Below are positions 5,539-53,671 of a stretch of DNA of 64,000 nucleotides, in pieces. The DNA lies in the NCBI GenBank assembly GCA_021733795.1, contig JAIPKB010000003.1:1-64000 (forward strand), written 5' to 3'. How positions within the stretch are numbered: the stretch's first letter is position 1; every line of letters begins with the position of its first letter. Below the pieces are notes generated by a model. That model was not told where the DNA came from, ran no database searches, and worked only from the letters and a program-made list of their open reading frames with translations. Source of the stretch: Akkermansiaceae bacterium. Lineage in GTDB: Bacteria; Verrucomicrobiota; Verrucomicrobiia; Verrucomicrobiales; Akkermansiaceae. Position numbers and translations under genes: made by a program.

Positions 5539-6393
5539 ATGAAAACCACAACTGTTGTTCTCGCCATGATGGCGGTGCCGCTGATCATAACCTGGGCCAG
5601 CGCGGCCGGTCCCGCGCCGGCGCGGAGAGCCATTCCGTGGGATGTTGCCAGTCTCTCGAAGACTCCCGTGGCCCACCCCACCAAGGAACGACCCGCAGCG
5701 GGGATGCGCTCGTTCACGCAGATCAACCCGAAGAAAATCGGGCTCACCGGCATTTCATGGGGCGGAACGATTGTGAGCGCGGTGGCGGGAATTGACTCGC
5801 GGTTTGCTTTTGTCATCCCCGTCTATGGCGGCGGTTTCATCCACCAGCATGAGATGACTCCCGATCAGTATCGGGATTATCTGGCAAAGTGGGATCCGTC
5901 GGCGTATCTGCCTCGTGCGAAGATGCCGATGCTATGGGTGAGCGGGTTCAACGAGCCCGTTTTCCCACTCAATCTGTTCAGCAAGCCAGCGGAGACCGCT
6001 GGCGGCACGGCCACCTTGTGCATTCGTCCCTTCCTGCCGCACGGACATGGGTTCGGTTGGGAGGACGTCTGGGAGATCGGTGGCTTTGCCAACGGTGTCG
6101 TGAAAGGCACCGCGCCGATGCCGAGGTTTGGGCGGCCGCAGGTCGATCCGAAGGACGGCCGGGGGCATGCGAAGTTCACCGGCGAACTCAAGAGCGCGGC
6201 GGTCGGCTTCACCACGGCCGCCGAGTGGAAGAACCAAACACTGAGCACCATTCCCTGCCCCCTCAGCAAGGACGAAGTGATCGCAGGCAGCCGTCTGCCC
6301 GCAGGAACGACGGCATATATGATCATCGCCAGCGGCAGTGGCGTTTGGGGCGATGCAAGCATCGATTCCGTGTTGGTTGCGCTCACCCCATGA
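5539..6393 (+). CDS. AXE1/dienelactone hydrolase-type esterase, internally deleted
   Basis: A 284-residue exported alpha/beta-hydrolase of the acetyl-xylan-esterase/dienelactone-hydrolase type. Starting at ATG 5539 gives a clean signal peptide (MKTTTVVLAMMAVPLII...); the frame is open further upstream but that part overlaps the GH116 gene. The nucleophile elbow GISWGG and a C-terminal PHGHG histidine are present. The N-terminal half of the fold is missing: DVASLSKTPVAHP runs almost directly into INPKKIGLTGISWGG. The related gene starting at 63630 has, after the matching NMAALSKVPPA, the strand KGKPTRVFAYYG and the oxyanion-type loop LVHGGGG. Roughly 100 or more residues are therefore absent here, in frame. 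The stop overlaps the sensor-kinase start (ATGA at 6390). Catalytic activity is doubtful; it could be a relic kept for coupling. Confidence 0.7.
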   Translation: MKTTTVVLAMMAVPLIITWASAAGPAPARRAIPWDVASLSKTPVAHPTKERPAAGMRSFTQINPKKIGLTGISWGGTIVSAVAGIDSRFAFVIPVYGGGFIHQHEMTPDQYRDYLAKWDPSAYLPRAKMPMLWVSGFNEPVFPLNLFSKPAETAGGTATLCIRPFLPHGHGFGWEDVWEIGGFANGVVKGTAPMPRFGRPQVDPKDGRGHAKFTGELKSAAVGFTTAAEWKNQTLSTIPCPLSKDEVIAGSRLPAGTTAYMIIASGSGVWGDASIDSVLVALTP

Positions 6394-9300
6394 AGTACAC
6401 CCGCCTGCTGGTGCGTTGGCTTGCGGGCCTGGTGGGGGCGCTGGCAGTGCTGGCTCTTGCCGCGCCGCCAGTGGCGGCAAGTCCGCCGTGGACCGTCCTC
6501 AACTGGCAGTCCGACGAGGGTTTGCCGGATAATACGGTGGTGGGGATTGAGCAAACGCCCGACGGCTTCCTGTGGGTGACCACCAAGACGGGTCTGGTGC
6601 GGTTCGACGGCGTGCGCTTTCAGCCATTCCCGGTGACGGCGGCCGGGGCGCCGGCGGGCGCGATCAAGGCGTTGGTCGCCGACCGGCGCGGTCGCTTGTG
6701 GGTGGCGAAGGATTATGGCGTGGTGCTCTGCGTGGATCAGGGGGTCACGACGATGGTGGTCGGCCCGGAAATTGCGGGGGACGGGGATGGCGGGGAGCGG
6801 TTCATGCTGTTAGACGACGAAGACGCGGTGTGGGTGTGCTATTCCGGCGGTGTGGTGTTGCGGATTCGGGACAGGCAGGTGCGGGTGTTCACTGCGGCGG
6901 ACGGGTTGCCCGGCGGCAGCGGCTGCCAATTGGCAAGGGACGGGGTGGGGCAACTTTGGTTTGCCCAAGGGGATTGGGTGGGAATCTTCCGCGAGGGCAG
7001 GTTTCGCCCGCTGGCGCAACAGTGGTTCCAGCGCATCATCGGTGCCCGCGCAGGCGGAATCTGGGGATACCGGGACCGGCAACTCTGGAAGCTCGCCGAG
7101 GGAGGCTCACCGGTGAAACTGGACGCGTTGCCAGACGATGTGCCCGAGGTGGTCCTGACGGCCATGAGTGAGGACCGGGCCGGTTGCCTGTGGCTCGGCA
7201 CAATCAGGGCGGGCCTGTTCCGCTTTGATCCGGCAGACGGGGTGACGGTGCCGCTATCCCAACAAACCATCCTCACCCTGCGGGAAGACCGGGAGGGGAA
7301 TCTCTGGGTTGGCACGCGCGGCGGTGGCTTGAATCAGTTGCAGCCAAGGGTCGTCGAGTTGTTGACCACCGGTTCCGCGACCCCGTTTGAACCAGTGCAG
7401 TCGCTCTGCCAGGACACGGAGGGGATGTTGTGGGCCGTCGTCTGGCCCGACGGCCGACTCATGCACAGCGCGGGTCCGGGGCAGGAATGGTCCCCGTTGT
7501 CGCCTGACGACGGTTGGCCCCTATCCCGCAGCGAGTGCGTGGCCGCCGATCCCCGGGGTGGGGTCTGGATCGGCACGGATGATGCCGGGATGCAGCACTG
7601 GCAAAACGGAGCGGTGACGGAAACCCTCGACCACACCAACGGCTTGGCCACCAATCAGGTCGGCGCATTGCTGGTGACCGCCTCCGGCGAGGTTTGGATC
7701 GGGCCCAGAGTGGCCGAGGTCGTCCACTGCCGGAAGGACGGACGGCTCCGGACCTTCCAACTGCCCCCCGGCAGCGGGTCGGTCATCGCCCTGGCAATGG
7801 ATGCCGCCGGCGACTGCTGGCTGGCAACCTACGGCCGCCGCTTGCTGCGGGTGCGCGGTGATGTCGTGATCGACGAAACCACCGCGACGTTGGCGGAGCC
7901 GTGCGAGATCCGGGGCCTGTTAGGCACGCCGGACGGCAGCCTGTGGATCGGCTACGCCGGCCAGGGGCTGGGACGGCTCAAAGCCGGACGCTTCAGCCAG
8001 TGGCGGACCGACCAAGGGCTGCACGACGACTACATCTGCAATATTCTGCCGGACGGGCGGGGTCGGTTGTGGTTCGCCGGCAATCGGGGTATTTTCAGCG
8101 TGCGCAAAGAGGATTTTGACGACTTCGCGGCGGGGCGGGCCACGCGGGTCAGGTCGGTGGCCTATGGGCGCAATGACGGGCTGCTGCGCTTGCAGGCGAA
8201 CTTCAACTTCTGGCCGGGTGCCCAGTGCGGCACGGATGGCCGCTTGTTGTTCGCCATGCAGTCGGGCATTGCCGCCGTGTCTGCCGACGATCTCAAGAAG
8301 AATCCGGAGCCGCCGCCGGTGGTGATCGAGCGGGTCACCGCCAATAGCCAAACCGTGGCCGCTTACCAAGCGGGTGGACTTCCGGAGCCCCCCCATGCCG
8401 CCGTGCCGCTCGAATTGGGCCGGACCGGCACCCACCTGCATCTCTCGCCGGGCCAGCGGCGCGTCGAGTTCGCGTTCACCGCCTTGACGTTCACCAAGCC
8501 GGAATCCATCGGCTTCAGGTACCGGCTGCACCCCATGGACGGGGACTGGGTCGAGGCGGGCACCTTGCGCACCGCCACCTATGCCCAAATCCCGCCCGGA
8601 CACTATCAGTTCGAGGTGAGCGCCTGCACGAGTGAGGGCGTGTGGAACACCACCGCCGCAGCGCTCGACCTAACGACCGAACCGTATTGGTGGGAGACCG
8701 CCTGGTTCCGGGTCCTCGCCCCGCTGGCCGCCGCCGGGATATTAGGGGGGGGGATCTTGCTGGGCGTGCGGCGGCGCCACCGGCGCCAGATCGAGCGCCT
8801 TGAGTTGCAACAGGCGACCGACCGCGAGCGCACCCGCATCGCCGCCGACCTCCACGACGACCTTGGCGCACGCCTGACCGAACTGAGCCTGCTCGGGTCG
8901 CTCGGCGTCCGGCCGGCGATCCCGCTGGCGCAAGCACAGGACTACTTGGGCGAGGTCGCCGCCAAGTCGCGGGAAATGGTCGCCGCACTCGACGAAATCG
9001 TCTGGGCGGTCAACCCGATGAACGACCTGATGCCGTCCACCACCAGTTATTTGTGCCATTATGCGCAGCGGTTTTTCGAGTCCACGCCGGTTTTCTGCCG
9101 CTTGGACGTGACCACCGGCCTGGCGGACCTGACCTTGAACTCGGAGCAGCGGCACGGGTTGCTGCTGGCGCTCAAGGAGGCCCTCAACAACGTGGCACGA
9201 CACTCCGCGGCCACCGAGATCTGGTTGCGGATTTTCGTCTGCCGGGGCATGCTGCACATCGTGGTCGATGACAACGGCCAGGGACTTCCTGGCACGGCTC

Positions 9301-9437
9301 CCACAGCAGGGGCCAACGGCTTGGAAAACATGCGCCTGCGCCTGGCGGGCATGGGCGGCACTTGCCACGTGCGCAGCGCGCCAGGACAAGGGACCAGGGT
9401 CGAGTTCTCCCTGCCGCTGGCGGGGTTAAATCCCTAG
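6390..9437 (+). CDS. Two-component sensor histidine kinase with periplasmic beta-propeller (Reg_prop / Y_Y_Y / HisKA_3)
   Basis: A 1015-residue membrane sensor. ATG 6390 is chosen because it overlaps the preceding TGA and is followed by a signal peptide (LVGALAVLALAAPPVAA); the open frame upstream lies inside the esterase gene. Residues ~35-650 carry propeller repeats of the kind seen in hybrid two-component systems (GFLWVTTKTGLVRFDGV, GNLWVGTRGGG). A Y_Y_Y domain follows at ~697-767, then one membrane helix at ~771-795. The HisKA_3 box is DLHDDLG with His822, and the HATPase domain shows N-box NNVARHSA and VDDNGQGL. Similar propeller sensors in other bacteria detect oligosaccharides in the periplasm, so it likely controls this locus. 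The partner is the response regulator 244 bp downstream. A run of nine G lies in the helix codons (8745-8753). Confidence 0.88.
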   Translation: MKYTRLLVRWLAGLVGALAVLALAAPPVAASPPWTVLNWQSDEGLPDNTVVGIEQTPDGFLWVTTKTGLVRFDGVRFQPFPVTAAGAPAGAIKALVADRRGRLWVAKDYGVVLCVDQGVTTMVVGPEIAGDGDGGERFMLLDDEDAVWVCYSGGVVLRIRDRQVRVFTAADGLPGGSGCQLARDGVGQLWFAQGDWVGIFREGRFRPLAQQWFQRIIGARAGGIWGYRDRQLWKLAEGGSPVKLDALPDDVPEVVLTAMSEDRAGCLWLGTIRAGLFRFDPADGVTVPLSQQTILTLREDREGNLWVGTRGGGLNQLQPRVVELLTTGSATPFEPVQSLCQDTEGMLWAVVWPDGRLMHSAGPGQEWSPLSPDDGWPLSRSECVAADPRGGVWIGTDDAGMQHWQNGAVTETLDHTNGLATNQVGALLVTASGEVWIGPRVAEVVHCRKDGRLRTFQLPPGSGSVIALAMDAAGDCWLATYGRRLLRVRGDVVIDETTATLAEPCEIRGLLGTPDGSLWIGYAGQGLGRLKAGRFSQWRTDQGLHDDYICNILPDGRGRLWFAGNRGIFSVRKEDFDDFAAGRATRVRSVAYGRNDGLLRLQANFNFWPGAQCGTDGRLLFAMQSGIAAVSADDLKKNPEPPPVVIERVTANSQTVAAYQAGGLPEPPHAAVPLELGRTGTHLHLSPGQRRVEFAFTALTFTKPESIGFRYRLHPMDGDWVEAGTLRTATYAQIPPGHYQFEVSACTSEGVWNTTAAALDLTTEPYWWETAWFRVLAPLAAAGILGGGILLGVRRRHRRQIERLELQQATDRERTRIAADLHDDLGARLTELSLLGSLGVRPAIPLAQAQDYLGEVAAKSREMVAALDEIVWAVNPMNDLMPSTTSYLCHYAQRFFESTPVFCRLDVTTGLADLTLNSEQRHGLLLALKEALNNVARHSAATEIWLRIFVCRGMLHIVVDDNGQGLPGTAPTAGANGLENMRLRLAGMGGTCHVRSAPGQGTRVEFSLPLAGLNP

Positions 9438-9469
9438 TCTCCTTGGAAACGGGAATTTATGAATGTTAG

Positions 9470-9488
9470 GGAAATTTCTTAAATTTCC
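9470..9488. repeat. Short perfect dyad in the kinase/regulator intergenic region
   Basis: GGAAATTT (9470-9477) and AAATTTCC (9481-9488) are perfect inverted copies separated by three bases. The site begins 32 bp after the kinase stop codon, in an AT-rich 244-bp gap between the kinase and regulator genes. It could be an operator for the regulator or a short hairpin. No T-run follows, so a classical terminator is not supported. Confidence 0.45.
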
Positions 9489-9508
9489 AGCGCTTCTGAT
9501 TGATTTAC

Positions 9509-9609
9509 GAATGATGATTGTTGATGTTTGATTGTGGAAGTGAGCTTGCCTGGAGCGAACGCTCATTTTCACGCTCAGCTCAAAAATCATCAATCGACAA
9601 TCATCAATC
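9509..9609. repeat. Imperfect long inverted repeat upstream of the response regulator
   Basis: The arms are 9509-9525 and 9593-9609, matching in 15 of 17 positions when one is reverse-complemented. The loop is about 67 bp. The right arm contains two direct copies of ATCATCAATC (9586-9595 and 9600-9609). Between the arms are short gagc/gctc inversions. The structure fills most of the gap before the response-regulator gene and may be a mobile intergenic repeat or a regulatory hairpin. Confidence 0.5.
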
Positions 9610-9681
9610 AGCGGCTTCTCCCTTTCTCCGTGACATCCTTCCCATTCGGGGTTTCCATCGGGCGCGCCGCTTCAGTTTATC

Positions 9682-10326
9682 ATGATTTCCATCGCCATCG
9701 TCGAGGACAACGCCGGGGTCCGGCAGAATTTACAGCGTCTGATTGAGGAGACGCCGGGGTTTCGCTGCGTCTGTGCCTGCGATTGCGGCGAGGACGCCCT
9801 GCGGGAGATTCCCCGCGCCCGGCCCGACGTGGTGCTCATGGACCTGCACCTGCCCAATCTCTCCGGCATCGAATGCACCGCGCGCCTCAAGGAACTCCTG
9901 CCGGACGTCCAGGTCATCATCGTCACCGTCTATGATGACACCGAAACGGTCTTCAAGGCGCTGCGCGCCGGGGCCTGCGGCTACCTCCTGAAACGTTCCG
10001 CCCCGGAGCGTATTCTCGCTGCCATCACCGAAGTCCGCGAGGGCGGCGCGCCGATGACCAGCGAGATCGCCCGCAAGGTGGTCGAAGCCTTCCAGTCGGC
10101 CCCGCCGCCGGGCCCCGCCGACCTGAATCTGACCCGCCGCGGGCACGAGATCCTCCAGCGGCTCGCACAAGGTTTTGCCAACAAGGAAATCGCCACCCAC
10201 CTGAGCTTGAGTGTCGATACCGTGCGCTGGCACCTCAAACAGATCTACGAAAAACTCCACGTCCGCTCCCGCACCGAGGCCGCCCACATGTTCCACCGCG
10301 CCGGCTCCCCTCCCCCCGGACCGTGA
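9682..10326 (+). CDS. NarL/LuxR-type response regulator
   Basis: A 214-residue cytoplasmic DNA-binding regulator. The receiver domain occupies ~1-120: acidic residues in IVEDN, phospho-acceptor Asp54 in VVLMDLHLP, Thr82 and Lys104 (YLLKRS). The LuxR-type helix-turn-helix is at ~148-205 (GFANKEIATHLSLSVDTVRWH). It pairs naturally with the HisKA_3 kinase encoded just upstream. It is the only transcription factor in the window, so it probably sets expression of the surrounding glycan genes; no binding site can be named from sequence alone. A proline-rich linker (PPPGPA) separates the domains. Confidence 0.92.
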   Translation: MISIAIVEDNAGVRQNLQRLIEETPGFRCVCACDCGEDALREIPRARPDVVLMDLHLPNLSGIECTARLKELLPDVQVIIVTVYDDTETVFKALRAGACGYLLKRSAPERILAAITEVREGGAPMTSEIARKVVEAFQSAPPPGPADLNLTRRGHEILQRLAQGFANKEIATHLSLSVDTVRWHLKQIYEKLHVRSRTEAAHMFHRAGSPPPGP

Positions 10327-10550
10327 ACCTCGAATTTCCAGCTCCCGATGCGCCGCAGCGGTGGCGTCGGAACTCGGTTCGCGCAGCAGTTGCGCCGGTT
10401 GCCCACGTTTCGAGTGATCGCCACCACCCATAAAACCACCCGTTTGGGGGGGTGACAAGCCCCGGCGGAAATGACAGCGTTTCAACCTTGCCGGGGGCCG
10501 CACCACCGCCACCCTCTCGCGCAATCCCCAATCCCAGGCAAACCGCCAAA

Positions 10551-11261: not shown

Positions 11262-11350
11262 GGATATTTCCGCAGCGAGGGTTTTCACCGGCTGGGTGGG
11301 TCTGTGGATCCGCCCGGCCCCTCCAAGAACCGACTTCTTCCAGTGACATG

Positions 11351-13863: not shown

Positions 13864-16800
13864 ATGAACCGAAGCGCCACTCCGCTCCCGCTTCGCCCCT
13901 TGTTCACGGTGGGCGCACTGGCCCTGATGTTCGCCATGCCCGCCGAGGTGAGGGCTGTCACTGCGCTGAAGATGGATCTGACCGTTGGCAACAATCTCTC
14001 CACGGTTGACCGCACCTATACCTACAACCTCGGTGCCACCGGGATGCGCGGGTGGATTGACAACGGCTGGCCCGAGACGCCGGCACAGGATGGGTACACG
14101 GCATTTGCGCCCTATCAGATTCTGGTGACCGCCGTGGGTGCCGGCACGCCGGCGTCGGGCATTCTGGCCGTCGATGACGTGATCCTGGGTGCGAGCGCAG
14201 GCAGCGGTGCCGTTGCGCTTTTCACTAGCGATGCCCGCAAGAGCCTGGGCTTGGTGATCGGCGCCGCCGAGGCCGGCAACGGCATTCTAAGCTTCAAGCG
14301 CTGGCGGGCCGGGGGCACCGCCGATGTGTCCATCATCCTGCCCGTCATGGGTGCCTACTCCGACACGGCGCCCTACAATTGTGCCAAAACCACGCTGATC
14401 AGGGACGATGCCGAGGTGTTTCACGGGCTGAGCGAGTATGTCATCTACGCGGCCAAACACACCAGCATGTTCGGCACCGCTGGCCACGGGTTTTCCAATG
14501 TGCCGCCGCCCGGCGGTTGGGAGGCCGGCGGCACCCACGGCTCGATCAGTTGGTACGGGCCGGTCAACCAGGCCGGACTGGTCGCCCAGCTCACCATCGC
14601 GCTGGGCAAGAAGGCCGGCGTGGTGAGTGAGGAGATCGATCCGGCCATCGCGCGGGCGGCCAATGTTTTCGGCTACTATGTCAACCGTGGATCCATTCCT
14701 TACGGCGAACATCAACCGTATTGCGGTGATTACCAAATCCAGGGCCGGACGTATTATGATCACCGCAGCAACGGCAAGGACGGTCTGGCCGCGGTCATGT
14801 TCGCGTGCATGGACAACAAGCCTGTGCAGACGCAGTATTTCTCGCGGATGGCCTTGGCGGGATTCAACGGCGAGGCCTACGGGCATACGGGCCAGGGGTT
14901 CAGCTATTTGTGGACGATGCTCGGCGCCAATATGGGCGGAGAACTCGCGGCGCAGGAATACCACAAGACAATGCGCTGGGACCGCGACATGAAGCGCCGC
15001 AGTGACGGATCATTCGTCTATGAAGGCGGCGAGCAGTGGCCCCCCGGCAAGGCCAACGACTACTTCGACGGTCCCGATCCCTATATCTACTATGACAACC
15101 CGACCGCCTATTACCTCCTCCATGCCTGCATCCCCTTGAAAAACCTTTACATCACCGGCAAGAATGCAACCCCGGCCAACGACCTTGACGAACAAGCGGT
15201 GAGCAACGCCACCTGGGCCGCTGACTTCACCGCGGCCTGCGGCGCTTATACCAAGGAGCAGTTGTTCGCCGCGCTGGGCGAATGGGATCCGATCGTGCGC
15301 TTCAATGCCGCCACCGAACTGGCCACCCGCCCGCTGACCAGCACCGAGGTGGACGCCCTGATCACCATGGCGGAAAACCCCGCCGATGCCAATCAGCGCG
15401 AGGCGGCCTGCACCGCCCTCGGTTGCCTGCAAGCCACCGGCGCGATCCCCGCGCTGACCCGCCGCCTCAAGGACACCGACATCTGGGTGCGCGCCAAAGC
15501 CGCCAAGGCACTTACCGCCATGGGTACCGCGGCAGCCTCGTCCGTGCCCGACATGCTGGATGCGTTTGTCGCGAATGTGAAGCCCACCTATCCGTTTGAG
15601 GCCGGCTTCAATTGGAATGATCCCTTGCAGATCGCCAACGGTTATCTGTCCGAAACGCTGTTCAACCATTTGGGAAGCACCACCATCCATGCCGACAAGA
15701 GCCTGCTCTATCCGGCGGTGCGGGCCGGCATCAAACAACCGGCCGGGATGTGGCGCGGCCAGCTTTCCGATTTCGTGCAGAACCGGTTGACCCTGGATGA
15801 CGTCAAGGCCCTGACCCCGGAGCTGTTCGAGGAGGTCACCTTGGAAGGACCCTGCGACCGGATGTTCACCATGGCCGGCCCCTATATGGCATTGTCCGCC
15901 CTGTCGAAATATCACATCGCGGAAGGAATCGACTTGTGCATGGGCAAAACCAGTTTCTGGGGCTGGGACGCCGCCGCCGCCTTCGATTTCCTCAAACCCT
16001 ATGACGAGACGGCCCGGCGGATGCTGCCGGATTTGTATGCCCAGGATCTCGCGTGGATGTCGGCCACCGATCCAGCGGGCGGAGAAAACGCCGCGAATCT
16101 CGACGCCTGTATCGCCAGGATCGAAGCCGCCTCGACCGCGCCGGATTTGGTCTACGGGCTGGCGGTGGCCAACCCGCAAATCGGGGTCACCCCGGCCAAC
16201 ACGGCCAGGACGATTTATCTGACAGGATCGTCGTGCCGGCAGGCCACGGTGACCTGCGCGATCACCACCCAGCCGCTGCACGGCACCCTCACGGGCACGC
16301 CGCCAAACCTAACATACACCCCGGCGGCCGGCTACCAGGGCATGGACCGCTTCACGTTCAAGGCCAGCGACGGACTGACCACCTCGGCGCCCGCGACGGT
16401 TCACATCGTGGTGGGCACCGGCGGCACCGGCTTGAACGGGAGTTATTACGACAACATGGATTTCACCTCGCTCATGGCGACACGCATCGACCCGTCCGTC
16501 AACTTCGACTGGGGCACGGCACCGCCTGACACATTGAACGCGGGCACCTACAGCGTGCGCTGGACCGGGCAGGTGCTGGCGCCGGAGAGCGGGACCTACC
16601 GGTTTTCCACCCGCACCAGCGACGGGGTCCGCTTGTGGGTCAACGGCGCGCAGGTGATCAACGACTGGAACGACCAGGCGACCAGCCTGTGGAACGACAG
16701 CGCTCCCATCACCCTGACCGCCGGCCAGAAATACAGCCTGAAGATGGAGTATTATGACAATGCCAATCCGGCCGCGGCGCGGTTGTATTGGTATATGCCG

Positions 16801-19800
16801 TCACGCAAGGCCGCCACGATCATCCCGCAGGAGTTGTTATTCCCCGTGACGGGCGTGGTCCTGACCTCGCCATCCAACGGCGCCAGCTTCGCGCCGGGGG
16901 CGACGGTCACGCTGACGGCCGATGTCGCGGACGTGGCCGGCACGGTGACCAACCTGTCGTTCTATAACGGCGCCACCCTGATCGGGGCGGACACCACCGC
17001 TCCCTATTCGGTGAATTGGACGAATGTGGCGACGGGCGAGTATGCTCTGACAGCCAAGGCTACCCACAACGTGGGCGCGCTCAGCACGTCCACCGTGGTG
17101 GTGATCACGGTGGGCGGTCACGCGGTTCCCGTGACATCCGGCCTGGCCTCCTGGTTCGATTCATCCCATGGCGTCACCGCGGATGCCGACCAACAGGTGA
17201 CGTTCTGGCATGACCGGTCCGGCAACGGACATGACGGGGTGTTCGAACTTTGGGACAAGCCGGTTGTCATGCGCAATCAACTCTTCTCGAAACCGGCGAT
17301 CCGGTTCAGTCACAAGGCCGCCGGTTTCCTCGATCTTGCCGGAACGCTGTTTGTCAAGGAGCAATACGTCGTCGTGCGCTCACCCTCCTATGACACCTGG
17401 AGCAGTTATGGCGGCTTCCTCTGCCGCAGGTCGGGACGGGGGTCAAGCTACTTGCTTCGCGGAACCGGATTCGAATCGTTGCCAGCCGCGGTGTCCAAGA
17501 ATGGCACCCCGCTCGGGTGTCCGTTCAACCTCGGCACCATCACCAACTACATGGTCCTCAAAATCACCGTGGACAACAGCGACACGAGTGCGGCAGGTTA
17601 CCAGATCGGCAGGGCCGATGGATATTCCTGCGAGTTCGACGTGACCGAGATTCCCGGCTACTCCAGGGCCCTCACATCCCAGGAGGAGGCCAAGGTCGGC
17701 GGTTATCTAACATCGAAATACGGGCTCGCCACGGCCTACCCCGCCACCGGCAGTCTCGCCAACCGGGCCGCCACCGGGATCACCAACAGCTCGGCGGCGA
17801 TCAACTCCACTCTCATGTGCAATGGAACCAACTATGACGTGACCGCCTATTGGGGCCCGGAGGACGGCGGCATCAACCCGAACAATTGCGCCAACCCGGC
17901 AGCGATCGGCTCGTGGACCAATGTGGCCTCGATCGACATCAACCGCACGCTCACCAACCTGGCACCCGGCACGACTTATTACTTCACCTTCCGCGCCACC
18001 AACGCGACGGGCACGATCTGGGCGGCTCCCGCGCAGAGTTTCACCACGCTCTCCACGGCCAAGGACATCCTGACCTTCGGCACCAATGTCGCCGGCAGCA
18101 GCGCCGTGATCGATACCGGTGCCGGCACCGTGGCATGGACCGTGCCGTATGGCACGGATCTAACAAACCAGACGCCGGCCTACACGGTTTCGCCCCTGGC
18201 GTTGGGCATTCCGGATTCGGGCATCAGCCTGAACTTCTCCACCACGCAGAGCTACACGATTGTCGCCGAGGATTTCTCCACCAAAGTCTACACCGTCACG
18301 GCAACATTGGGCGCGGCGAGTCCGGCCTGCGACATCCTGGCCTTTGGCCCCGGCGCTGCCATTGCCGGCAACTGCATCGACTTGACCGTGCCTTATGAGA
18401 CGGATTTGGCGACCCTGGCACCGGCCTACACGGTTTCCGCCGGTGCTGTCGGCGTGCCGGCCAGCGGGGTGGCGCCGACCCCGAACTTCGCCACAGCAAA
18501 CCCGGCCGCATACACCATCACCGCTCAAGACGGCATCACCACCAAGACCTACTGGGTGACGCTCACGGTCCTCCCCTTGAACCCGGACCGCCTCTCGAAC
18601 GGCAGCTTTGAGATCGGCAAGGACATCCCACTCAATTGGAACGGTGGTCTGGGTGGCTACACAGGCGTTAACCTTTCTTCAGGCCCGTCCAACACCGATC
18701 TGCCCGGGTGGTCCGGCAACTTCACCGGGTGGTATGACATCAATAGCGCCGAGTACCACAGCGCCCAGCACGGCGTGCGATTTATCAACTTGATCGGCGC
18801 GACTGATGCGAACGTCCTCTCTCAGTCCTTCGGGGTTGTGGCCGGGACCAGATACACCGTGAGCTATTACGAGATGTATCGGGGCGTCAGTGGCCGTATG
18901 AATGCAACCCTCAGTGTCGCAGCCGGAACAGTTAGCGGTGCAAACGGATCGCCGGTGGCGGTTTCCGCGGGCCCGGCCGCCAGCATCGTTCAGACGAGCG
19001 CTACGGGAAACGCCGCCTGGACGCTGCACACCTTCACGTTCATCCCGAACACCACCACGACGGCGACCCTATCCTTAGGAAACTGGTACACAGGCGTCAA
19101 TAATGGAGCCCACGGCGACAACGACGGCGTCTTCCTGGACCATGTCAGTGTCACCGCCGCAGCCATCGACGGCACAAGCGCTTCAACGACCACGCTGACC
19201 CGCCACCCGGGCACTGGCTCAACTTCGACATACGGCACTGCGTTGAGTTTTGATGTCACCGTGACCGGAGGCTTCGGCACCCCGGCCGGCACCGCCACCC
19301 TGAAAGACGGCGGAACTGGCGGAACAACCCTCGGCAGCGCCACCCTGACAAACGGCGCCTGCACCATCACCACCCCCACGCTGGCGGTCGGCACCCACAC
19401 CAACATCGTCGCCGTCTATGGCGGCAACAGCACCTACGCCACCAGCACGTCGGGTGCCTTGACTCAGACGGTCAACAATCCGAGTATCACCGCCACGGCT
19501 GGAGCGAACGGCACGGTCAGCCCGGCGGGTGTCACCGTGGTTAACTATAACGGCAGCCAGAGTTATGCGATCACGCCGGCTTCCGGCTATGTGGTGGGCG
19601 ATGTTCTGGTGGACGGATCTTCCGTCGGGCTCAAGACGAGTCATGTGTTTTCCAACATCACTGCCAATCATACCATTGCGGCATCTTTCGTGGCCAATCC
19701 TTCGGCTGCCACCGGTACCTATACCGTCAACCAGATTGACAACAAGGTCATTTACAAATTCACCGGCAACGGCACTTTCACCCCGGCAAGCGGCCTCACG

Positions 19801-37776: not shown

Positions 37777-38085
37777 ATGAAATACATCACCACAGCCATC
37801 AGCATGTCGCTCACGGCGTTGCCCTGCACCGCAGCGGACATCTTTTTGAAGAACGGCGATAAGGTCGTGATGATGGGCGACAGCATCACGGAACACCACC
37901 TCTATAGCAGTTATGGGAATATCGCCGGAACAAGTCGAAGCCAAACGTATGGCCGTCTTCAACGAACGTATGGAGAAGACGCCCGTGCTTTTCGACGCCA
38001 TCCTGAAAGCACGGATCAATCAAGGTTACAAGGTCAAAATCATATTTCTGACAAAAAATCAAAAAGTTACAAACAACAAAAATGA
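37777..38085 (+). pseudogene. SGNH hydrolase remnant with internal deletion and frameshift
   Basis: The reading starts with a signal peptide (MKYITTAISMSLTALPCTAA) and the first block of an SGNH hydrolase (FLKNGDKVVMMGDSITE), then breaks off after LYSSY. The C-terminal part of a similar protein appears in another frame from 37913: SPEQVEAKRMAVFNERMEK and LFDAILKARINQGYKVK. Most of the middle of the enzyme, probably including the Asp/His pair, is gone, and the two ends are out of frame. Its TGA still overlaps the ATG of the next gene (ATGA at 38082). In the +1 frame used here the product is about 102 residues and not expected to be active. Confidence 0.75.
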
Positions 38086-41122: not shown

Positions 41123-43459
41123 ATGAAACCCATCAAACACACGATCCACCAAATCAGCTTGCTGGCTCTGCTGGCAGGCACCATGGCATTCACATTGTTT
41201 GCCGCGGAGCCTGTGGTACCGCAACAGACGAGCCCGCAGTCTGACGGTCGAACAACTATCTCGCTCAACGGCACCTGGCAAATCGCCGAGAGCGTTTCGG
41301 CTGACGGGATTCCCACGGTTTTCGATCATACGGTGGTGGTGCCGGGAATGGTCAACCTTGCCAAGCCCGCGTTCCCGGACGTGGATCTGTTTGCCAGCCA
41401 TGAATACCTGATACGCTGGGGAAACAAGTATCCGTGGGGCGGCCCGGACATCCTGGCCAAGGATGCGCCGTTGCCGGTCATCGGCATTTCGATGCAGCAG
41501 CGCAATTACTTCTGGTATCGCACAACCTTTACGGCACCGGAAAAACGCCAGGTCGTCCTCCTCAAGATCAATAAGTCCCAGTTCGGCACCAAGGTGTGGC
41601 TCAATGGAAAGGCGGTGGGCGAGCACCCGGGCTGTTGGACGTCGGGCACTTTCAATCTAACCGACGCGTTGAACGCCTCTGGCGAGAACCAACTGCTGGT
41701 GCGCATTGGCGCCCATCCGGCGGTTTTGCCAGAGAGCCAGCCGGGAGCCGGCATGTATTCTTCGAAACACAAATGGACTCCCGGCATCTATGACGACGTC
41801 AGCCTGATCCTTTGCGACAATCCGGTGATCGAGACCATTCAGGTGGCACCGCGCATCGACAACTCCGAGGTTGTGGTTCAGACAAAAGTTAGAAACCATG
41901 GTCCGGCCAGGGTTTTCGATCTCACTCATAAGATCAGCACATGGAATACTGGCAAAGAGGTCGCGCGGACCCAGTCGCAGCGTGAAAACATTGGCGCCGG
42001 CGAGGAAAAGACCTTTACCCAGACCATTCGGATTCCCGACGCGCGGCTTTGGTCGCCGGAGGATCCCTTCCTCTATTCGGTGGAGAGCCGGACGGGCGGC
42101 GACAGCGTCCGTACGCGCTTCGGCATGCGGGAGTACCGGTTCGACAACGCCAAGAGTGTCGGCTACTTGAACGGCAAGCCGTATTACCTGCGTGGCGGCA
42201 ACATCGAGTTGCACCTGCATTTCGAGGACCCCCTCTGCGGTGAGACACCCTGGAACCGGGCCTGGGTACGCAAGCTCATCGCTGAAATCCCCAAGAAACT
42301 CGGCTGGAACACATTCCGTTTCAGCATGAGCCCCGTTCCGGATATGTGGCTCGATATCGCCGACGAGGAAGGCATGCTCATCCAGTATGAGCCGCCCCTG
42401 TGGACGTATCCTGGAGGAACCCGTCCACAGTGGGACCCCAACGAGTTCATCAAGGAGTTCGGCCTGTGGATGAGCGATAACTGGAACCATCCATGCCTCT
42501 TCATGTGGGATTCTAACAATAAATGCTCGTGGGATGATTTCGCCAAGATCATCAACACGGTGCGGCCACTGGATTTGTCCAACCGGGCTTGGGACAACGG
42601 CTTCTGCTCGCCTGCCACTCCGGCCGACCCCAGAGAGTCGCATGAGTATGTCACACCGACAGACTACCGGACGTTCAACACGTTCGAAAGAAAGCGTGAA
42701 GGCCGCTGCGTGATCCTCAATGAATATGCCTGGCTCTGGCTCTATGCGGATGGTGAACCTATTGATATTGCCCGGGGTGGCTTCGACAAAATACCCGCCG
42801 CCGAGCGCCAGGAGTATCGTTTCTATATCACCGCCGCCATGACGGAGATGTGGCGGTCCGAACGCTTCGCCATCGGGGTTCTCGACTATCAATACCTGGG
42901 CTCGTACCTGCCGCGCAAGACCGGCCCGTATCACTTCGGAGACTTTAAAGATATCACCACTCTCCAACTTCATCCGGAATTCGAAAAGTACATGGGCGAG
43001 GCGCTCAAGCCGCTGGGCGTCTATCTCAAATTCTGGGGCGAAGGCGAGCCGGGCCCCGCCTGGCACCGGGACCCCTGGTTTTCGATTTGCGGCGGCGCGG
43101 CGCACACCTTCCCGGTGGTGCTGATCAATGACGACCCGGAGCCGGTTGCCGGGAAACTGGTTCTCACCGTGGAAAGCCCTGATGGGAGAAAGCTGGCCTC
43201 CAGCGAGAAGCCGTTCCAATTGGATGGCGCTGGACGGAATGCTTATGAGCTGTCAGTGCCGATCCCCAAGGAGACCGGCAAGTACCTGTTGAAGGCCGTG
43301 GCGTACCCTGAAGGCTCGCGGCACAAGAGCCCCACGGTCAGCCTCCGGAAACTCTCGGTGGAGCGTGTTGTTGATGCTAAGGCCAAGCTGCTCCCAGGAG
43401 AAACCAAAGACAACGCGCTTCCAACAAATGATCCAAAGGATCTACTGAAGCCACAGTGA
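41123..43459 (+). CDS. GH2-like glycosidase with altered acid/base position
   Basis: A 778-residue exported protein. Order: signal peptide, sugar-binding domain (~40-220, YFWYRTTFTAPEKRQVVLL), Ig-like domain, TIM-barrel (~330-640) and a C-terminal beta domain. The usual acid/base motif of the group reads WD.xNE; here it is WDSNNKC, so the Glu position is Lys467. A possible nucleophile is the Glu in ILNEYAWLW. GH2 contains beta-galactosidases, beta-mannosidases and beta-glucuronidases, among others. With the acid/base missing this protein may be a pseudoenzyme or use another residue. It lies between the esterase and the GH106-like gene. Confidence 0.78.
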   Translation: MKPIKHTIHQISLLALLAGTMAFTLFAAEPVVPQQTSPQSDGRTTISLNGTWQIAESVSADGIPTVFDHTVVVPGMVNLAKPAFPDVDLFASHEYLIRWGNKYPWGGPDILAKDAPLPVIGISMQQRNYFWYRTTFTAPEKRQVVLLKINKSQFGTKVWLNGKAVGEHPGCWTSGTFNLTDALNASGENQLLVRIGAHPAVLPESQPGAGMYSSKHKWTPGIYDDVSLILCDNPVIETIQVAPRIDNSEVVVQTKVRNHGPARVFDLTHKISTWNTGKEVARTQSQRENIGAGEEKTFTQTIRIPDARLWSPEDPFLYSVESRTGGDSVRTRFGMREYRFDNAKSVGYLNGKPYYLRGGNIELHLHFEDPLCGETPWNRAWVRKLIAEIPKKLGWNTFRFSMSPVPDMWLDIADEEGMLIQYEPPLWTYPGGTRPQWDPNEFIKEFGLWMSDNWNHPCLFMWDSNNKCSWDDFAKIINTVRPLDLSNRAWDNGFCSPATPADPRESHEYVTPTDYRTFNTFERKREGRCVILNEYAWLWLYADGEPIDIARGGFDKIPAAERQEYRFYITAAMTEMWRSERFAIGVLDYQYLGSYLPRKTGPYHFGDFKDITTLQLHPEFEKYMGEALKPLGVYLKFWGEGEPGPAWHRDPWFSICGGAAHTFPVVLINDDPEPVAGKLVLTVESPDGRKLASSEKPFQLDGAGRNAYELSVPIPKETGKYLLKAVAYPEGSRHKSPTVSLRKLSVERVVDAKAKLLPGETKDNALPTNDPKDLLKPQ

Positions 43460-46811: not shown

Positions 46812-46836
46812 AACATAATTCTAACACAGGCCGCGA

Positions 46837-48960
46837 ATGAGCAAGATGATCGAACTAGCAACAGACATGAACGCCGATGTTAAGCCGGTGAAGCGAGGAA
46901 ATCCGGCGCGGTGGCTGGCTTGTGGGATGGTGCTGCTATCGCTATCCGTGGCGGCCCACGCATGGGTGCCCAACGCCAAGGATCGGGCGGCGGCTATCAA
47001 GGCGGGAGATTTCACCACCTATGCCGGCCAGCTTACGGCATGGCTGAATCAGCAGGTGCCGACCGATCCGGCCCGGATCACCGGGGAAAAGTTGATGGCC
47101 CTGCTCAGGGATCCGGTCTTTATCGCCGCCTTGGCCGAGCGGCAGTTTATTGGCAAAGTGTGGGATCAACCGGACCTGGGCGGCTATGCCAAGGCGGCTC
47201 CTAAGAACAAGGCGTTCCTGACCTGGGTGATGTCCAATGGCAAACTCATGGATGAGCTGCTGCTGACCCGCACCCCCACCGAGATGGCCGGCAGATATGA
47301 CAATAGCTGGTCGATCAACGCCGGCATCCTGGAAAACTGGAAACAAATCTGCTATGCCTATCCTGAGTCACGGGAAGGTCTCTATCTGCGGCTCGCCATT
47401 GCCACGGCGCTGCGCCCACCCGGTACCGGCAACGCCGGGGTTGGCATGGCCAAGGAGCAAAGCACCCCGCTGGCCCGCTTCGGCAATTTCCTCAAGGCAC
47501 ACAAGAACCATGAGCTGATGCCAAGCTTTGACACTCTCACGGCCTGGGAGTTTACGCATGTGGTGTCGTCGGGTGCGTCCGACCAGGATCTGGTCTGGGC
47601 CCGGGAAGCGCTCAACACCTGGAACCCTGATTTCAGAAAGAGCGAGAACATCATTGGGATGGCGAGCCAGATGCAATATCAAGGGTCGCAGATTCCCTAT
47701 AACAACATGACTTGCGTGTTCGCGGGAGGCGGGAAATGCGGCCCCAGATCCTCCTTTGGGGTGTTCATCAACCAAGCATTCGGCATCCCCGCCATCGGCG
47801 TGGCCCAGCCGGCGCATGCCGCGGTCGCCTACCGGGACAAGGATGGCAACTGGCAGGTCGCCTTGGGCAAAGGTTGGAACGTGTCGAAACTCGCCGACCG
47901 CGCCATGATGTCGGGCGGTGAGTTTCTGGAGCGGGTCAAGGAGCGCAAGACCAACGCCTTCGCCAATGTCGAACACCTGCGCTGGCTGGCGTCTCATCTA
48001 ACCGCAAGGTTGCGGATCGATGCGGTCAATGCCACTGTTCCGGCGATTGCCGATGCGAGCAAAGACGCGATTGCCCCGTTCCAACCCTCCCCCGTGGCGG
48101 CGGCGACGGAGAAGCCGGTGGTCAAGCCGAGTCAGCCGGTCAGGGCGGCACCCGGGGTCATGCATATTGAGGGCGACGGTTTTGTTAGTATCGGAGGCAT
48201 CAGCGGCTACGGCCCCGGCGTGGGGGTTCTTGATAGTTTCACCGGTGGCAAACAAGTTTACTTCGCCGCGATGTCACAGGCCGGCTGGGCCGGCTATAAG
48301 ATCAATGTCCCCAAGACCGGTGTCTATGAATTGACCGCCACTTTGGCCGCCATGAACTGGGGCCAACGCCTTTATGCCAGATCGTTCGGCGCAATGTATC
48401 CGGTCAAGGCTGCGACGGCATCCGATGTCTACCGGCAGCAGGACGCGCTGGGACCGCAGATGGCCATCGATCAGGATCTGGGGACGCGCTGGGCCATGAA
48501 TCTGGGCAAGGAGCAAGGGTGGATCGAACTCGATCTTGGCCAGCCCAGGGAGATCAGCAAGATGATCATCGACGAGCGTTTCTGGGAACGCGTGTCGAGA
48601 TACCGGGTGGAATACATGGCTGGCGACGAGTGGAAGACCCTCTTCGAAGGCGGGGACCTCGGGGAATGCAAAAAGGAATTCCCGCCGGTGACCACGCAGA
48701 ATGTGCGGCTCAGCCTGTTGGATGGCAAGGGACCACAGGGTGGCCCGACCATCTGGGACATCAGTGTGGGAATGGTCTTTGATGGCACCGGTTGGCTCGA
48801 CGCGGAATCGGCCCCCGACAGGTCCGGTTGCTGGAATACCACCAAACCCTTGGACATGTATCTGGTCGAGGGTTCCCAGATGCTCTGGCTGTGCGCGCCC
48901 CCACAGCGCGGACTTTCCATGAAGTCGTTCGAACTGAAACCCAAATCCTCCCAACCATGA
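46837..48960 (+). CDS. Transglutaminase-like protein with C-terminal discoidin (F5/8C) domain
   Basis: A 707-residue exported protein with an N-terminal hydrophobic leader preceded by a rather long n-region (an in-frame ATG at 46867 is an alternative start). A transglutaminase-like domain carries GGKCGPRSSFG (Cys301) and PAHAAVAY (His327), with Asp334 or Asp336 as third member. A linker rich in Pro/Ala/Lys leads to a galactose-binding or discoidin-type beta-sandwich (~520-640, DLGTRWAMNLGKEQGWIELD). The secretory setting suggests it acts on an extracellular peptide or glycoconjugate, as protease, amidase or cross-linker; this is inference. The stop lies next to a possible upstream ATG (48957) of the following gene. 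Confidence 0.7.
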   Translation: MSKMIELATDMNADVKPVKRGNPARWLACGMVLLSLSVAAHAWVPNAKDRAAAIKAGDFTTYAGQLTAWLNQQVPTDPARITGEKLMALLRDPVFIAALAERQFIGKVWDQPDLGGYAKAAPKNKAFLTWVMSNGKLMDELLLTRTPTEMAGRYDNSWSINAGILENWKQICYAYPESREGLYLRLAIATALRPPGTGNAGVGMAKEQSTPLARFGNFLKAHKNHELMPSFDTLTAWEFTHVVSSGASDQDLVWAREALNTWNPDFRKSENIIGMASQMQYQGSQIPYNNMTCVFAGGGKCGPRSSFGVFINQAFGIPAIGVAQPAHAAVAYRDKDGNWQVALGKGWNVSKLADRAMMSGGEFLERVKERKTNAFANVEHLRWLASHLTARLRIDAVNATVPAIADASKDAIAPFQPSPVAAATEKPVVKPSQPVRAAPGVMHIEGDGFVSIGGISGYGPGVGVLDSFTGGKQVYFAAMSQAGWAGYKINVPKTGVYELTATLAAMNWGQRLYARSFGAMYPVKAATASDVYRQQDALGPQMAIDQDLGTRWAMNLGKEQGWIELDLGQPREISKMIIDERFWERVSRYRVEYMAGDEWKTLFEGGDLGECKKEFPPVTTQNVRLSLLDGKGPQGGPTIWDISVGMVFDGTGWLDAESAPDRSGCWNTTKPLDMYLVEGSQMLWLCAPPQRGLSMKSFELKPKSSQP

Positions 48961-49094
48961 ATTCAATTTGTGACGCCGACCGCCGGGCCGGGATCAGCCC
49001 GCCATCACGCACGTGCCATCTATTCGCAGGTATCAGTTTGCGAAGTTGGAAGGAAACCAACGCAGAGCCACATGCCACGCGCAGCCGCAAATGC

Positions 49095-50486
49095 ATGAGC
49101 CACGGCCCGCCGCTGACCGTCGCGCTGTGCGCCAGCCTGTGGTTCGCCGTGTCCCCCGGGATGGCCACAGGCGGCCAGTGGAATGGATACGAACAGATAG
49201 ATTTCAACCTCGGGGGTCGCGGCGCGCTGCTGGTGGTGCCCAAGAAGCCCGCTCCAGGCAAATCTTGGATCTGGCGCACGGAGTTCTTCGGGGTCGACCC
49301 ACAGGCTGACATCGCTCTGCTCGGCGAGGGGGTGTATGTGGCCTACATTGGTGTGGGCGGGCTCCATGGGGCGCCGGTCGCGCTCGATGCCATGGATCAA
49401 TTTTACGAGCACGTCACCAAGACCTACGGACTCAACTCCAAGAGCGTGTTAGAAGGGTTCAGCCGGGGCGGCCTCTATGCCCTCAATTGGGCAATCCGTC
49501 ACCCGGATCGCGTCGCCGGCTTATACTTGGACGCGCCGGTATGTGATTTCAAGAGCTGGCCAGGCGGAGGCATCGGCAGTCAAGGCAGACTGGTCAAGAT
49601 GTACGGCCGCGAATGGGGCGAAGTCCTTGCCGCCTACAAGATGACCGATGAAGAGGCGCGGGCGTGGAAGGGCAACCCGATCGACAGGAGCGAGAACCTC
49701 GCGCCGTTGGTCAAGGCGAAGATTCCAATCTTTTGCGTCTGCGGCGACGTGCAGGACTGGGTCGTGCCGATCGAGGGCAACACCTTGGTGTTGGAAAAGC
49801 GTTACAAGGAGCAGGGCGGCGACATCACCGTCATCAAGAAACCGGGCGCAGGACACCGCCCGCACAGCTTGTCCGACCCCACGCCGATCGTCAACTTTGT
49901 GTTGAAGCACACCACCGGCGGCAAGATGGCCGAGGGCAAATGGCAGGCGATCAAGGCTGAAGCGGACAAGCAAGCGGTGGGCGCCCAACAGACGATCGAC
50001 ACGATCCCGCTCAACTCCAAGCCAGACCGGCAGACCGTGCTCAAATCGTTCGCATTCTCTACGCAGAACGCCGCTAACTACGGTGCGCGCGTCCACGGGT
50101 TCGTTTACCCGCCCGTAACCGGCGACTACGTCTTTGCCGTGGCTGGCGACGACGTTGCGAAGCTCTTCCTGAGCACCGACGCGGACCCCAAAAACAAGGC
50201 CTTGGTCGCCACCGTCGCCGAGTGGACCGAGGCGGCGGACTTCAACAAGTACCCGAGTCAGAAATCCAAGCCTGTGCGTCTGGAGCAGGGGAAGAAGTAT
50301 TACCTTGAGGCGGTGCACAAGCAGAATACGGGCGGGGCGAACCTGGCCGTCGGCTGGATTGCCCCTGGCGGGAGCGCCGCCACTGTCATCAAGGGCGCGT
50401 ACCTCTCGCCCTTCCCCAACGGTGTAAAGGGGACGATTCGCTACGAGATATGGCTCAACCAAGCAACTTGGCCGGAAAGACGCTGA
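49095..50486 (+). CDS. Secreted alpha/beta-hydrolase with C-terminal PA14-like domain
   Basis: A 463-residue protein if it starts at ATG 49095, where a signal peptide follows (LTVALCASLWFAVSPGMA). ATG 48957 overlaps the previous stop (ATGA) and would add 46 residues without a good leader of its own; that start is not excluded. The hydrolase domain has the nucleophile elbow EGFSRGG (Ser123) and a C-terminal GAGHRPHSL histidine. Residues ~300-440 look PA14-like (GFVYPPVTGDYVFAVAGDD, LEQGKKYYLEAVHKQ), a carbohydrate-binding fold shared with the DUF6288 proteins. It is probably an acetyl- or feruloyl-type esterase on an extracellular glycan. The reaction is not determined. Confidence 0.75.
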   Translation: MSHGPPLTVALCASLWFAVSPGMATGGQWNGYEQIDFNLGGRGALLVVPKKPAPGKSWIWRTEFFGVDPQADIALLGEGVYVAYIGVGGLHGAPVALDAMDQFYEHVTKTYGLNSKSVLEGFSRGGLYALNWAIRHPDRVAGLYLDAPVCDFKSWPGGGIGSQGRLVKMYGREWGEVLAAYKMTDEEARAWKGNPIDRSENLAPLVKAKIPIFCVCGDVQDWVVPIEGNTLVLEKRYKEQGGDITVIKKPGAGHRPHSLSDPTPIVNFVLKHTTGGKMAEGKWQAIKAEADKQAVGAQQTIDTIPLNSKPDRQTVLKSFAFSTQNAANYGARVHGFVYPPVTGDYVFAVAGDDVAKLFLSTDADPKNKALVATVAEWTEAADFNKYPSQKSKPVRLEQGKKYYLEAVHKQNTGGANLAVGWIAPGGSAATVIKGAYLSPFPNGVKGTIRYEIWLNQATWPERR

Positions 50487-50503
50487 GGACAGTCGAACAC
50501 AAC

Positions 50504-52513
50504 ATGAAAGCACAACCCATTGCCAATACAACAATGAGCCGTCTATATATAGGATTGTGCGGGATCGCCGCAATGTTGTGGGCGACGATGGTTTCGGGAC
50601 AAACCAACAGCGAGCCGGATGAGGCGCCGATGGTGCTTGAGAACCGCAGCGGCGTGAAGTGGGAATTGCAACGGATGCCCGCCGGCTGGGTGCTTGGAAC
50701 GCTGTCGCTCCATGGCAAGCCCGTGGAACAAGCGGCCACCCATGGCCTGCTGGTCATGCGCAATGTGAAGAGCGGAGAAGTCCGCTGGCTGGCGGCGTCT
50801 CAGGGAGGGAAAGTTGACGCGCTAACAGGCAGGTTCTCCGGCCGGCAGGAGATCGATGGCGCGAGTCTTTCATGGTCGCTGGATGTGGGCCTGCACGAAG
50901 ACCTGCCTGCGGTGAGCTTCACTCCGAAATGGTCGGTGGACAGGGACCTGACCGGTTGGGAAGTTTGCCTGACCTATCATGATGGCTTTGCGAACGACTG
51001 GCGTGTGCAAAGCTATCCGTGGGCCGGCAACAGCGAGGAGGCTGCTATAACGCCCATGCGTTATTGCGGGGTGCCTGGCGTGCTGGTGTACCGCCCGGAC
51101 CAGTCGCTGGTGGCGTTGTTCGCCATCGACAGCCGCTCCGATTACCTCAATCCTAACACATGGACCGGCAAGACAGGGTTTCACTTTGCCAACCGCCGGA
51201 CCGCCCCGCAATTCCGCTGCGGTGGCGGTTCCCTGGTCGCCGGGATAAAGTATGAAATGCCGATGCAGGTGTTCCTGAGTGATGCGGGCGAATTCGCCGG
51301 CGCCATCACGGGGATCATGGAGGCATGGATCAAGGTCAACAACTACAAGGTGGACGATTCGCTCACGGTGCGCACGCCGCAGGAGGCATTTGTTCTCGCC
51401 CTTGAAGGCCGGCGAAACATGGAGAGTTGGAAGCCGGGCGTTGGTTACGAGCATCACAAGGGAACACCGTTTGTTTATGTCGGCAACAATCCGGTCATTG
51501 CCTACTACGAGTATCGCCAGTATGAGATCACCGGCGACAAACTGTGGCGGGACCGCGCCTTCGAGCAGATTGACTTTGCCATCAAGGGGCAGCAGCCGAG
51601 TGGCGTGTTCCACACGAGTTGGTATTTCAGGCAGGCGGTTCCGGAGTTCTGCAGCCGGGATTGGAGCCATGACGGTTACAAGGTGGACCTCAATGCATAT
51701 ATGGTTAGATACATCCTGCAGACTTGGCAGCGGGTGAAGGAAAAGGAGGGCATTGACCAACAGGACTGGTACAAGGCGGCGATGGCGTCGCTGAACTGGG
51801 TGCTGTCGCAGCAAAACCCTGACGGAGGATTCCCGCAGGTGGTGGAAATCGGGTCCGGAAAGAAATCCCAGTCCGTGGTTTGTGGCCGCTTGCTGGTGGG
51901 ATTGCCCGTCATTGCCAAAATAACCGGAGACGTTCGCTGTCTTAAGGCCAGCGCCGAACAGGAGCGGTTCCTCCGAAAGAATGTCGAAGGGCAATTTTGG
52001 TACACCGGTGCGCATCCGGATCTGCCACCTGCAGATTACGAGCAGGACAGTATCTACGACGTGGTGGAATACTGGTTGGATAAACACGACCGGACGGAAG
52101 ACAAGGAATGCTTGGACCGCGCTGTGGCCAATGCCTGTTATGGTCTGCTGTACTGGTGCCCCAAACAACTGAGCTGGGTCAAGGGGCCTACGCAGTGTGC
52201 GCACAGCGAGCAGCAGCACTTCAACCAGTATTCCGTATATTGCTATGGCAATCGCAAGATCCAATGCCTGGACCGCTTGTTCAAGAAGACCGGCAATCCG
52301 CTGTTTGAACAACTCAAGGACCGTGTGATGCAACTCAATTTCCACGTGCAGGTTGCTGACGGCCCGTACAAGGGGGCGATGACCGAGGCGATCGCTGATC
52401 CGTGGCTGGAGCGTGGTCAAGGATTTGAGTGGCGGGGGAGTCCGTACACCAGTGAATTGGTAGTTGACCTGATGCTGCAACTCATTGACATGGGATTGGT
52501 GGCCAAACCATGA
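50504..52513 (+). CDS. Six-hairpin-type exported protein of unknown specificity
   Basis: A 669-residue exported protein. ATG 50504 is used because the leader MKAQPIAN matches the start of the gene at 53693. After the signal peptide the first ~270 residues are beta-rich. The rest reads like an (alpha/alpha)6 barrel (YEYRQYEITGDKLWRDRAFE, GVFHTSWYFRQ, NWVLSQQNPDGGFPQ, YSVYCYGNRK). This is the layout of GH105/GH88/GH127-like or lyase-type enzymes, but I do not recognise a family. Its place among glycan hydrolases makes a glycosidase or lyase role likely. Confidence 0.65.
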   Translation: MKAQPIANTTMSRLYIGLCGIAAMLWATMVSGQTNSEPDEAPMVLENRSGVKWELQRMPAGWVLGTLSLHGKPVEQAATHGLLVMRNVKSGEVRWLAASQGGKVDALTGRFSGRQEIDGASLSWSLDVGLHEDLPAVSFTPKWSVDRDLTGWEVCLTYHDGFANDWRVQSYPWAGNSEEAAITPMRYCGVPGVLVYRPDQSLVALFAIDSRSDYLNPNTWTGKTGFHFANRRTAPQFRCGGGSLVAGIKYEMPMQVFLSDAGEFAGAITGIMEAWIKVNNYKVDDSLTVRTPQEAFVLALEGRRNMESWKPGVGYEHHKGTPFVYVGNNPVIAYYEYRQYEITGDKLWRDRAFEQIDFAIKGQQPSGVFHTSWYFRQAVPEFCSRDWSHDGYKVDLNAYMVRYILQTWQRVKEKEGIDQQDWYKAAMASLNWVLSQQNPDGGFPQVVEIGSGKKSQSVVCGRLLVGLPVIAKITGDVRCLKASAEQERFLRKNVEGQFWYTGAHPDLPPADYEQDSIYDVVEYWLDKHDRTEDKECLDRAVANACYGLLYWCPKQLSWVKGPTQCAHSEQQHFNQYSVYCYGNRKIQCLDRLFKKTGNPLFEQLKDRVMQLNFHVQVADGPYKGAMTEAIADPWLERGQGFEWRGSPYTSELVVDLMLQLIDMGLVAKP

Positions 52514-52528
52514 ACCGCTAGCACATTT

Positions 52529-53671
52529 ATGAAACGCAAATACGCTAAATCCTGCGGCGGCGCCGCGATGTTGTTAATATCGCCGGTATTTGCCCAAACC
52601 AAGACCGAGGTATGGTGCCTGTTGTCGGGCATCTATCCGGGCATCGGCTATTCCGGAGTCGGCCTGATGGAGGCACAAACCCCGTGGTCCGGTTACTATG
52701 AAGTCTGGCCCGCCACCTGGATCACCGCCCACACCACCCAGTTCGCCGATCCCGGTTGGCGCTACATGGACAAGGCCTGCGCAAAGATCGACCCCGCCAC
52801 CTGGGGCGGCAGTTATGTCACCCTGCGCAATCCGAAAACCGGCGACTGGAGCATGATCGTGTGTGCGGATAAGCCGGTGACACTCCAGGTGCAGGTCGCG
52901 GGCAAACTGGCCAAAGGCGACGTGCACGTGTGGAAATCCAACGAAAGAATCCAGTTTGTGGAGGAGAAGCCGCTGCGCCTGACAAGCGGCGCCTTCTCCG
53001 TTTCCCTGGAGGGCAACAGTGTCTATACGCTGTCCACCACCACCGGCCAGAAGAAGGGAGCGCACCCGACACCGCCGCCCGCCGCCGACTTCCCGCTGCC
53101 CTACAAGGACGACTTCGAAAGCTATGCAGCGGGCGTGATGCCGAAATACCTCTGTGATCAGAAAGGCTCGTTCGAAACCGCCAAGCGCGCGGATGGCAAA
53201 GGCATCTGCTTCAAACAAATCGTTCCTAAGGAGGGCATCCCGTGGGGCGGCCGCGCAGGCTTTCCCAACACCGTGTTCGGCGACAAGCTCTGGACTAACT
53301 ACACGATCCAGGCCGACGTCCTGATCGCTGCCGGCAAGGCCGGGATGGGTGGACGTTACACCTATGGTCAGTTCCTTGGCTGGGATTTCGCCCTGCAGCA
53401 GGACGGCGCTTGGTCAGTCCAGGTTCCATACGTGGCCAATGGACAGGAATCGGTAAAATCCCTCGCGACAGGAAAGATCGTTGACTTCGCTCCCGGCAAG
53501 TGGCACCATCTGGCGGTGAGCCTCAAGGGCGAGGATATGCTCGTCACCGTGGATGGCAAGGAAGTGACCCGTGTGAAATATGAAGGCTATGCAAAGCGTT
53601 TGAACGGCATGGCCTATCTGTTATCCAGCTATGACCCCAACTGCTTCGACAACCTCAGCGTGACACCATGA
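52529..53671 (+). CDS. GH59-like (galactocerebrosidase family) protein lacking the catalytic barrel
   Basis: A 380-residue exported protein. After the signal peptide (CGGAAMLLISPVFA) and a few residues, the sequence goes straight into the region just after the TIM barrel of GH59: GLMEAQTPWSGYYEVW then ITAHTTQFADPGWRYM. The following beta-sandwich ends VYTLSTTTGQKKG. The C-terminal lectin-like domain begins YKDDFESYA and ends FDNLSVTP. In galactocerebrosidase both catalytic Glu residues are on the barrel, so they are absent here; about 280 residues seem to have been lost in frame. It could work as a secreted binding protein or be a decayed gene. The GH59 identity rests on several aligned blocks and is fairly sure. 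Confidence 0.75.
   Translation: MKRKYAKSCGGAAMLLISPVFAQTKTEVWCLLSGIYPGIGYSGVGLMEAQTPWSGYYEVWPATWITAHTTQFADPGWRYMDKACAKIDPATWGGSYVTLRNPKTGDWSMIVCADKPVTLQVQVAGKLAKGDVHVWKSNERIQFVEEKPLRLTSGAFSVSLEGNSVYTLSTTTGQKKGAHPTPPPAADFPLPYKDDFESYAAGVMPKYLCDQKGSFETAKRADGKGICFKQIVPKEGIPWGGRAGFPNTVFGDKLWTNYTIQADVLIAAGKAGMGGRYTYGQFLGWDFALQQDGAWSVQVPYVANGQESVKSLATGKIVDFAPGKWHHLAVSLKGEDMLVTVDGKEVTRVKYEGYAKRLNGMAYLLSSYDPNCFDNLSVTP

Follow-up and report, generated by a model that had tools for sequence, protein, structure and literature searches.

Probable recurrent, microhomology-assisted deletion in redundant genes of a polysaccharide-degradation operon in a freshwater Akkermansiaceae-like bacterium and its relatives

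Among described systems, bacterial pseudogenisation by deletion is close to the losses reported here, which likewise are internal, affect non-core genes, are lineage-specific and have intact homologues in relatives. They differ from it in that the reading frame is kept beyond expectation, the dN/dS of the leftovers is not detectably relaxed, and the losses cluster in a sugar-degradation operon that appears to have been exchanged. At the junctions, where 0–7 bp are shared and one case carries extra bases, they also resemble illegitimate recombination and microhomology-mediated (alternative) end joining, a likeness read from the junction sequences themselves. PMC8857213 treats polysaccharide degradation in Verrucomicrobiota, specialised on sulfated methyl pentoses. 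The present case is similar in that an Akkermansiaceae-type genome encodes numerous secreted glycosidases and esterases and carries fucosidase and GH106-type rhamnosidase genes; it differs in that the genomes are from fresh water and carry many broken paralogues. In the literature searched, no description of a repeated-deletion pattern in Verrucomicrobia was found.

The 64,000-nucleotide stretch analysed here (the window) is part of a 73.8 kb contig (C182) of a 6.07 Mb draft genome in 318 contigs that is 86% complete. The locus is a polysaccharide-degradation operon with redundant secreted enzymes and esterases, belonging to a freshwater Akkermansiaceae-like bacterium. The relatives compared with it are Akkermansiaceae, Verrucomicrobia or Prosthecobacter draft metagenome-assembled genomes, a number of them named after lakes or ponds; among them, the Lake Pavin genome (G059) holds a syntenic contig (G059:C556) that is 86–96% identical to parts of the window at 30.9–63.6 kb. 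The Lake Pavin genome is very large within its group, and its 12.6 Mb may represent a mixture of related genomes, so that paralogue counts need care. Upstream of the cluster, reading of the translations alone indicated a sensor-kinase-type gene and a LuxR-type response regulator (6391–10326), which may control the sugar-degradation cluster.

The initial annotation had described the loss of a central part from an esterase, a DUF6288, an SGNH and a GH59 gene, three of these losses being in frame, as well as a short PilX-like gene. All of this was borne out by a search for intact forms in related genomes, which yielded longer homologues from within the genus in, for example, G006, G019, G028 and Lake Pavin; their presence in close relatives also rules out that the short forms are the normal family length. 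The acetyl-xylan-esterase-like gene (5539–6393; like all other genes of the window in this and the next paragraph, on the + strand) is 375 bp shorter than its intact homologues in G006:C206 and G019:C358, with which it shares 75–80% nucleotide identity past the junction. This internal, in-frame deletion, with TGCG shared at the junction (5705–5714), removed the segment bearing the conserved HGGGG motif and left the nucleophile motif GISWGG in place. The DUF6288 gene (13864–21126) has lost 234–237 bp internally and in frame (junction 14405–14413), as seen against an intact paralogue in the window (25943–30097) that holds the missing segment, an orthologue from Lake Pavin with 91% identity, and some ten more homologues. 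In the GH59 (galactocerebrosidase-family) remnant (52529–53671), 810 bp of the catalytic barrel are missing in frame relative to G028:C636 (87% nucleotide identity), with ACCAAGA shared at the junction (52598–52604); only positions 246–294 of the 294 in the Pfam catalytic profile remain, whereas the G028 protein covers the whole profile. The lost segment contains the motifs WNE and WSSE, whose glutamates we take to be the catalytic glutamates of galactocerebrosidase and which align with the active-site region of that enzyme (4ccc alignment). Judged from sequence, residues for activity would be gone from both the GH59 protein (both catalytic-site motifs) and the esterase (the HGGGG segment).

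The SGNH/GDSL remnant (37777–38085) is about 1000 bp shorter than its homologue in G006:C385; against G019:C238 the difference consists of an 882-bp and a 119-bp deletion, with TTATG shared and the frame lost at 37911–37915. Beyond the window, at 70642 on the same contig, another shortened SGNH gene lacks 882 bp in frame, and no complete copy of this SGNH subfamily was found in the sampled contigs of the genome. The PilX/Verru_Chthon_A-like gene (30094–30870) has lost its 3' part out of frame, with about 3.53 kb missing near 30824, and its intact version runs on in Lake Pavin and G028:C332. Furthermore, a sialate-O-acetylesterase/ThuA-domain fusion (53681–56422) carries a 212-bp loss at 54857 that took the stop, the spacer and the start of the ThuA-domain gene. 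In Lake Pavin this second gene begins with a start and a signal-like sequence of its own. Neither this fusion nor the short SGNH gene at 70642 figures in the initial annotation.

Relatives carry losses of their own at this locus. Three genes that are intact in the window (all on the + strand) have orthologues shortened in frame on the Lake Pavin contig: a GH2 gene (41123–43459) by 1104 bp, an esterase gene (48960–50486) by 1068 bp, and an alpha-L-fucosidase gene (61799–63625) by 1386 bp. Together with a further 846-bp loss in a gene near 14.9 kb of the same contig, every one of these lengths is divisible by three. Elsewhere, 444 bp are missing from a Lake Pavin GH59 gene, two genes of G019:C330 show losses of 1005 bp and 667 bp, and G028 has lost 370 bp from a DUF6288 gene (C327) and 1058 bp from one gene on C444. 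Several apparent deletions, such as those in the 2438 gene and the G019:C77 gene and two in G059 of 360 bp and 459 bp, were excluded from the count, since the longer gene has probably gained a domain by insertion; self-repeats in G028:C879 were left out. Rearrangements of other kinds were also observed. At G019:C238:10742–11600, the first part of an SGNH gene runs in frame into a sialate-esterase gene with an internal stop codon, and in Lake Pavin, compared with the window at 50450–53717 and 59883–61799, whole genes are absent between similar 5' ends (about 60 bp of overlap). Recombination between the signal-peptide regions of successive genes may drop whole genes in this way on G059:C556.

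The cluster is 85–96% identical to its counterparts in G019 (C238/C330) and Lake Pavin, and homologues in the core regions C1 and C29 are mostly 70–88% identical. Because identity in the cluster is far above that in the core regions, the sequences suggest, as the simplest reading, that the cluster was recently exchanged horizontally among lake Akkermansiaceae-like species.

Homology at the junctions, a check proposed with the initial annotation, amounted to 0–7 bp of shared sequence in nearly all cases, apart from two unpolarised ones with 8 bp and 11 bp. Microhomology of at least 4 bp occurred at 8 of 22 junctions compared with 2.2% of random junctions in the same genes, an excess over chance of the kind expected from microhomology-mediated deletion, although for some junctions the shared length was read off by eye against diverged references, three or four values being only approximate. 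Sixteen of the 23 polarised intragenic events were in frame. A flat one-third null gave P ~0.0002 (16 of 22), and a null based on codon phase, which expects 9.5 in-frame events, gave P ~0.005; these P values are indicative, as events were picked post hoc, repeated hits within one decaying gene do not count as independent, and relatedness to this cluster guided which loci were compared. The second null takes into account that identical short words inside genes tend to fall in the same codon phase (44% of 3-mers, 54% of 5-mers and 65% of 7-mers, measured in 390 genes of at least 350 codons on sampled contigs), the in-phase fraction at random junctions being 0.32 with 0 bp shared and 0.60 with 7 bp. 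Part of the in-frame excess is therefore mechanical, and a moderate remainder stays, perhaps because selection disfavours polar effects in a tightly packed operon or favours retention of the leftovers.

These losses probably reflect an ongoing decay in which illegitimate, microhomology-assisted deletions keep recurring in genes that are redundant and were recently exchanged. A sugar-degradation operon would have passed among lake species and then been eroded independently in each, through deletions ranging from roughly 0.1 to 3.5 kb produced by illegitimate recombination, often at microhomologies of 3–7 bp and with some junctions blunt or containing filler. The deletions would take out catalytic parts, by a mechanism that might be end joining or slippage, and selection would be weak because of redundancy. 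Frame-shifting deletions might be purged more often, owing to operon polarity, atop the mechanical tendency towards in-frame loss. Decay of a redundant locus was one of the options listed in the initial annotation, and it is the best supported of them. It nevertheless has to accommodate leftovers that are unlike old pseudogenes, their dN/dS (0.10 for GH59, 0.28 for DUF6288 and 0.09–0.18 for the esterase) lying in the range of intact genes (0.13–0.37), an in-frame excess that persists after phase correction, and one SGNH short form, lacking 882 bp, that is common to two species with a dN/dS of 0.23 between the copies. The low dN/dS of the leftovers would arise either because the losses are recent or because the leftovers are still constrained.

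The same three observations would also be consistent with a selected loss of modules, in which shortened secreted proteins, made of a signal peptide and a C-terminal part, are kept because they still have a role, such as binding or acting as decoys. This explanation is unlikely: a recent deletion would yield equally low dN/dS, codon-phased repeats make in-frame loss a weaker sign of selection than it appears, and the retained part varies by gene and is often just the signal peptide and a short tail. Moreover, both catalytic motifs of GH59 are gone, and the SGNH copy in the window later lost its frame. What stands of the selective option in the initial annotation is thus the in-frame excess beyond codon phasing and the unrelaxed dN/dS, the latter being explained equally by recent deletion. 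In a tree of SGNH sequences the two short forms did not group, with weak support, and a single origin was not rejected (AU p = 0.16). It is quite unlikely, in a broader form of the argument, that lake Verrucomicrobia use in-frame deletion as a selected route by which redundant secreted enzymes become shortened, still exported proteins; if this were true, the SGNH short form, found in two species and under constraint, would be an example.

An artefact of metagenome assembly or binning, through collapsed repeats or chimeric joins, deserves attention since every named genome compared at these loci is a draft metagenome-assembled genome, the genome of the window is itself fragmented and incomplete, and the evidence consists of assembled sequence rather than reads. 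The assembly problem raised in the initial annotation is nonetheless very unlikely, as homology at the junctions is nearly throughout well under the usual assembly k-mers, deletion lengths favour multiples of three, and an identical 882-bp junction with identical extra bases is found in two separate genomes, G000 and G019. In addition, match tables for two 20-kb control regions in C1 and C29, aligned with the same four genomes, contained no internal deletions (a third control contig, C9, was dropped for having too few homologues). Because these controls are few, and because selection on their core or metabolic genes is stronger, they say less about mutation rate than they do against an assembly fault of a general kind. 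Neither long exact repeats at the joins nor occurrence regardless of gene class, as an artefact would produce, was seen at the junctions and controls examined. Programmed or site-specific rearrangement, in which phase variation removes modules, would account for repeated losses in one cluster and in several species but is highly improbable, given that junction sequence and position vary from case to case and between species, that inspection revealed no common recombination motif, all junction sequences being different, and that the genome's own 86%-complete draft contains no other copy of the segments lost from the GH59, esterase and SGNH genes, holding only paralogues of at most 80% identity.

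If recurrent deletion with ongoing decay is the correct explanation, the locus would represent gene decay caught mid-course in a catabolic operon that has apparently been exchanged, several species having lost different pieces. In codon-biased genes, where short repeats lie mostly in the same codon phase, deletions at microhomologies would remain in frame in more than one third of cases. For annotation, the pattern carries a warning that in such genomes many genes annotated as enzymes may be without their catalytic core.
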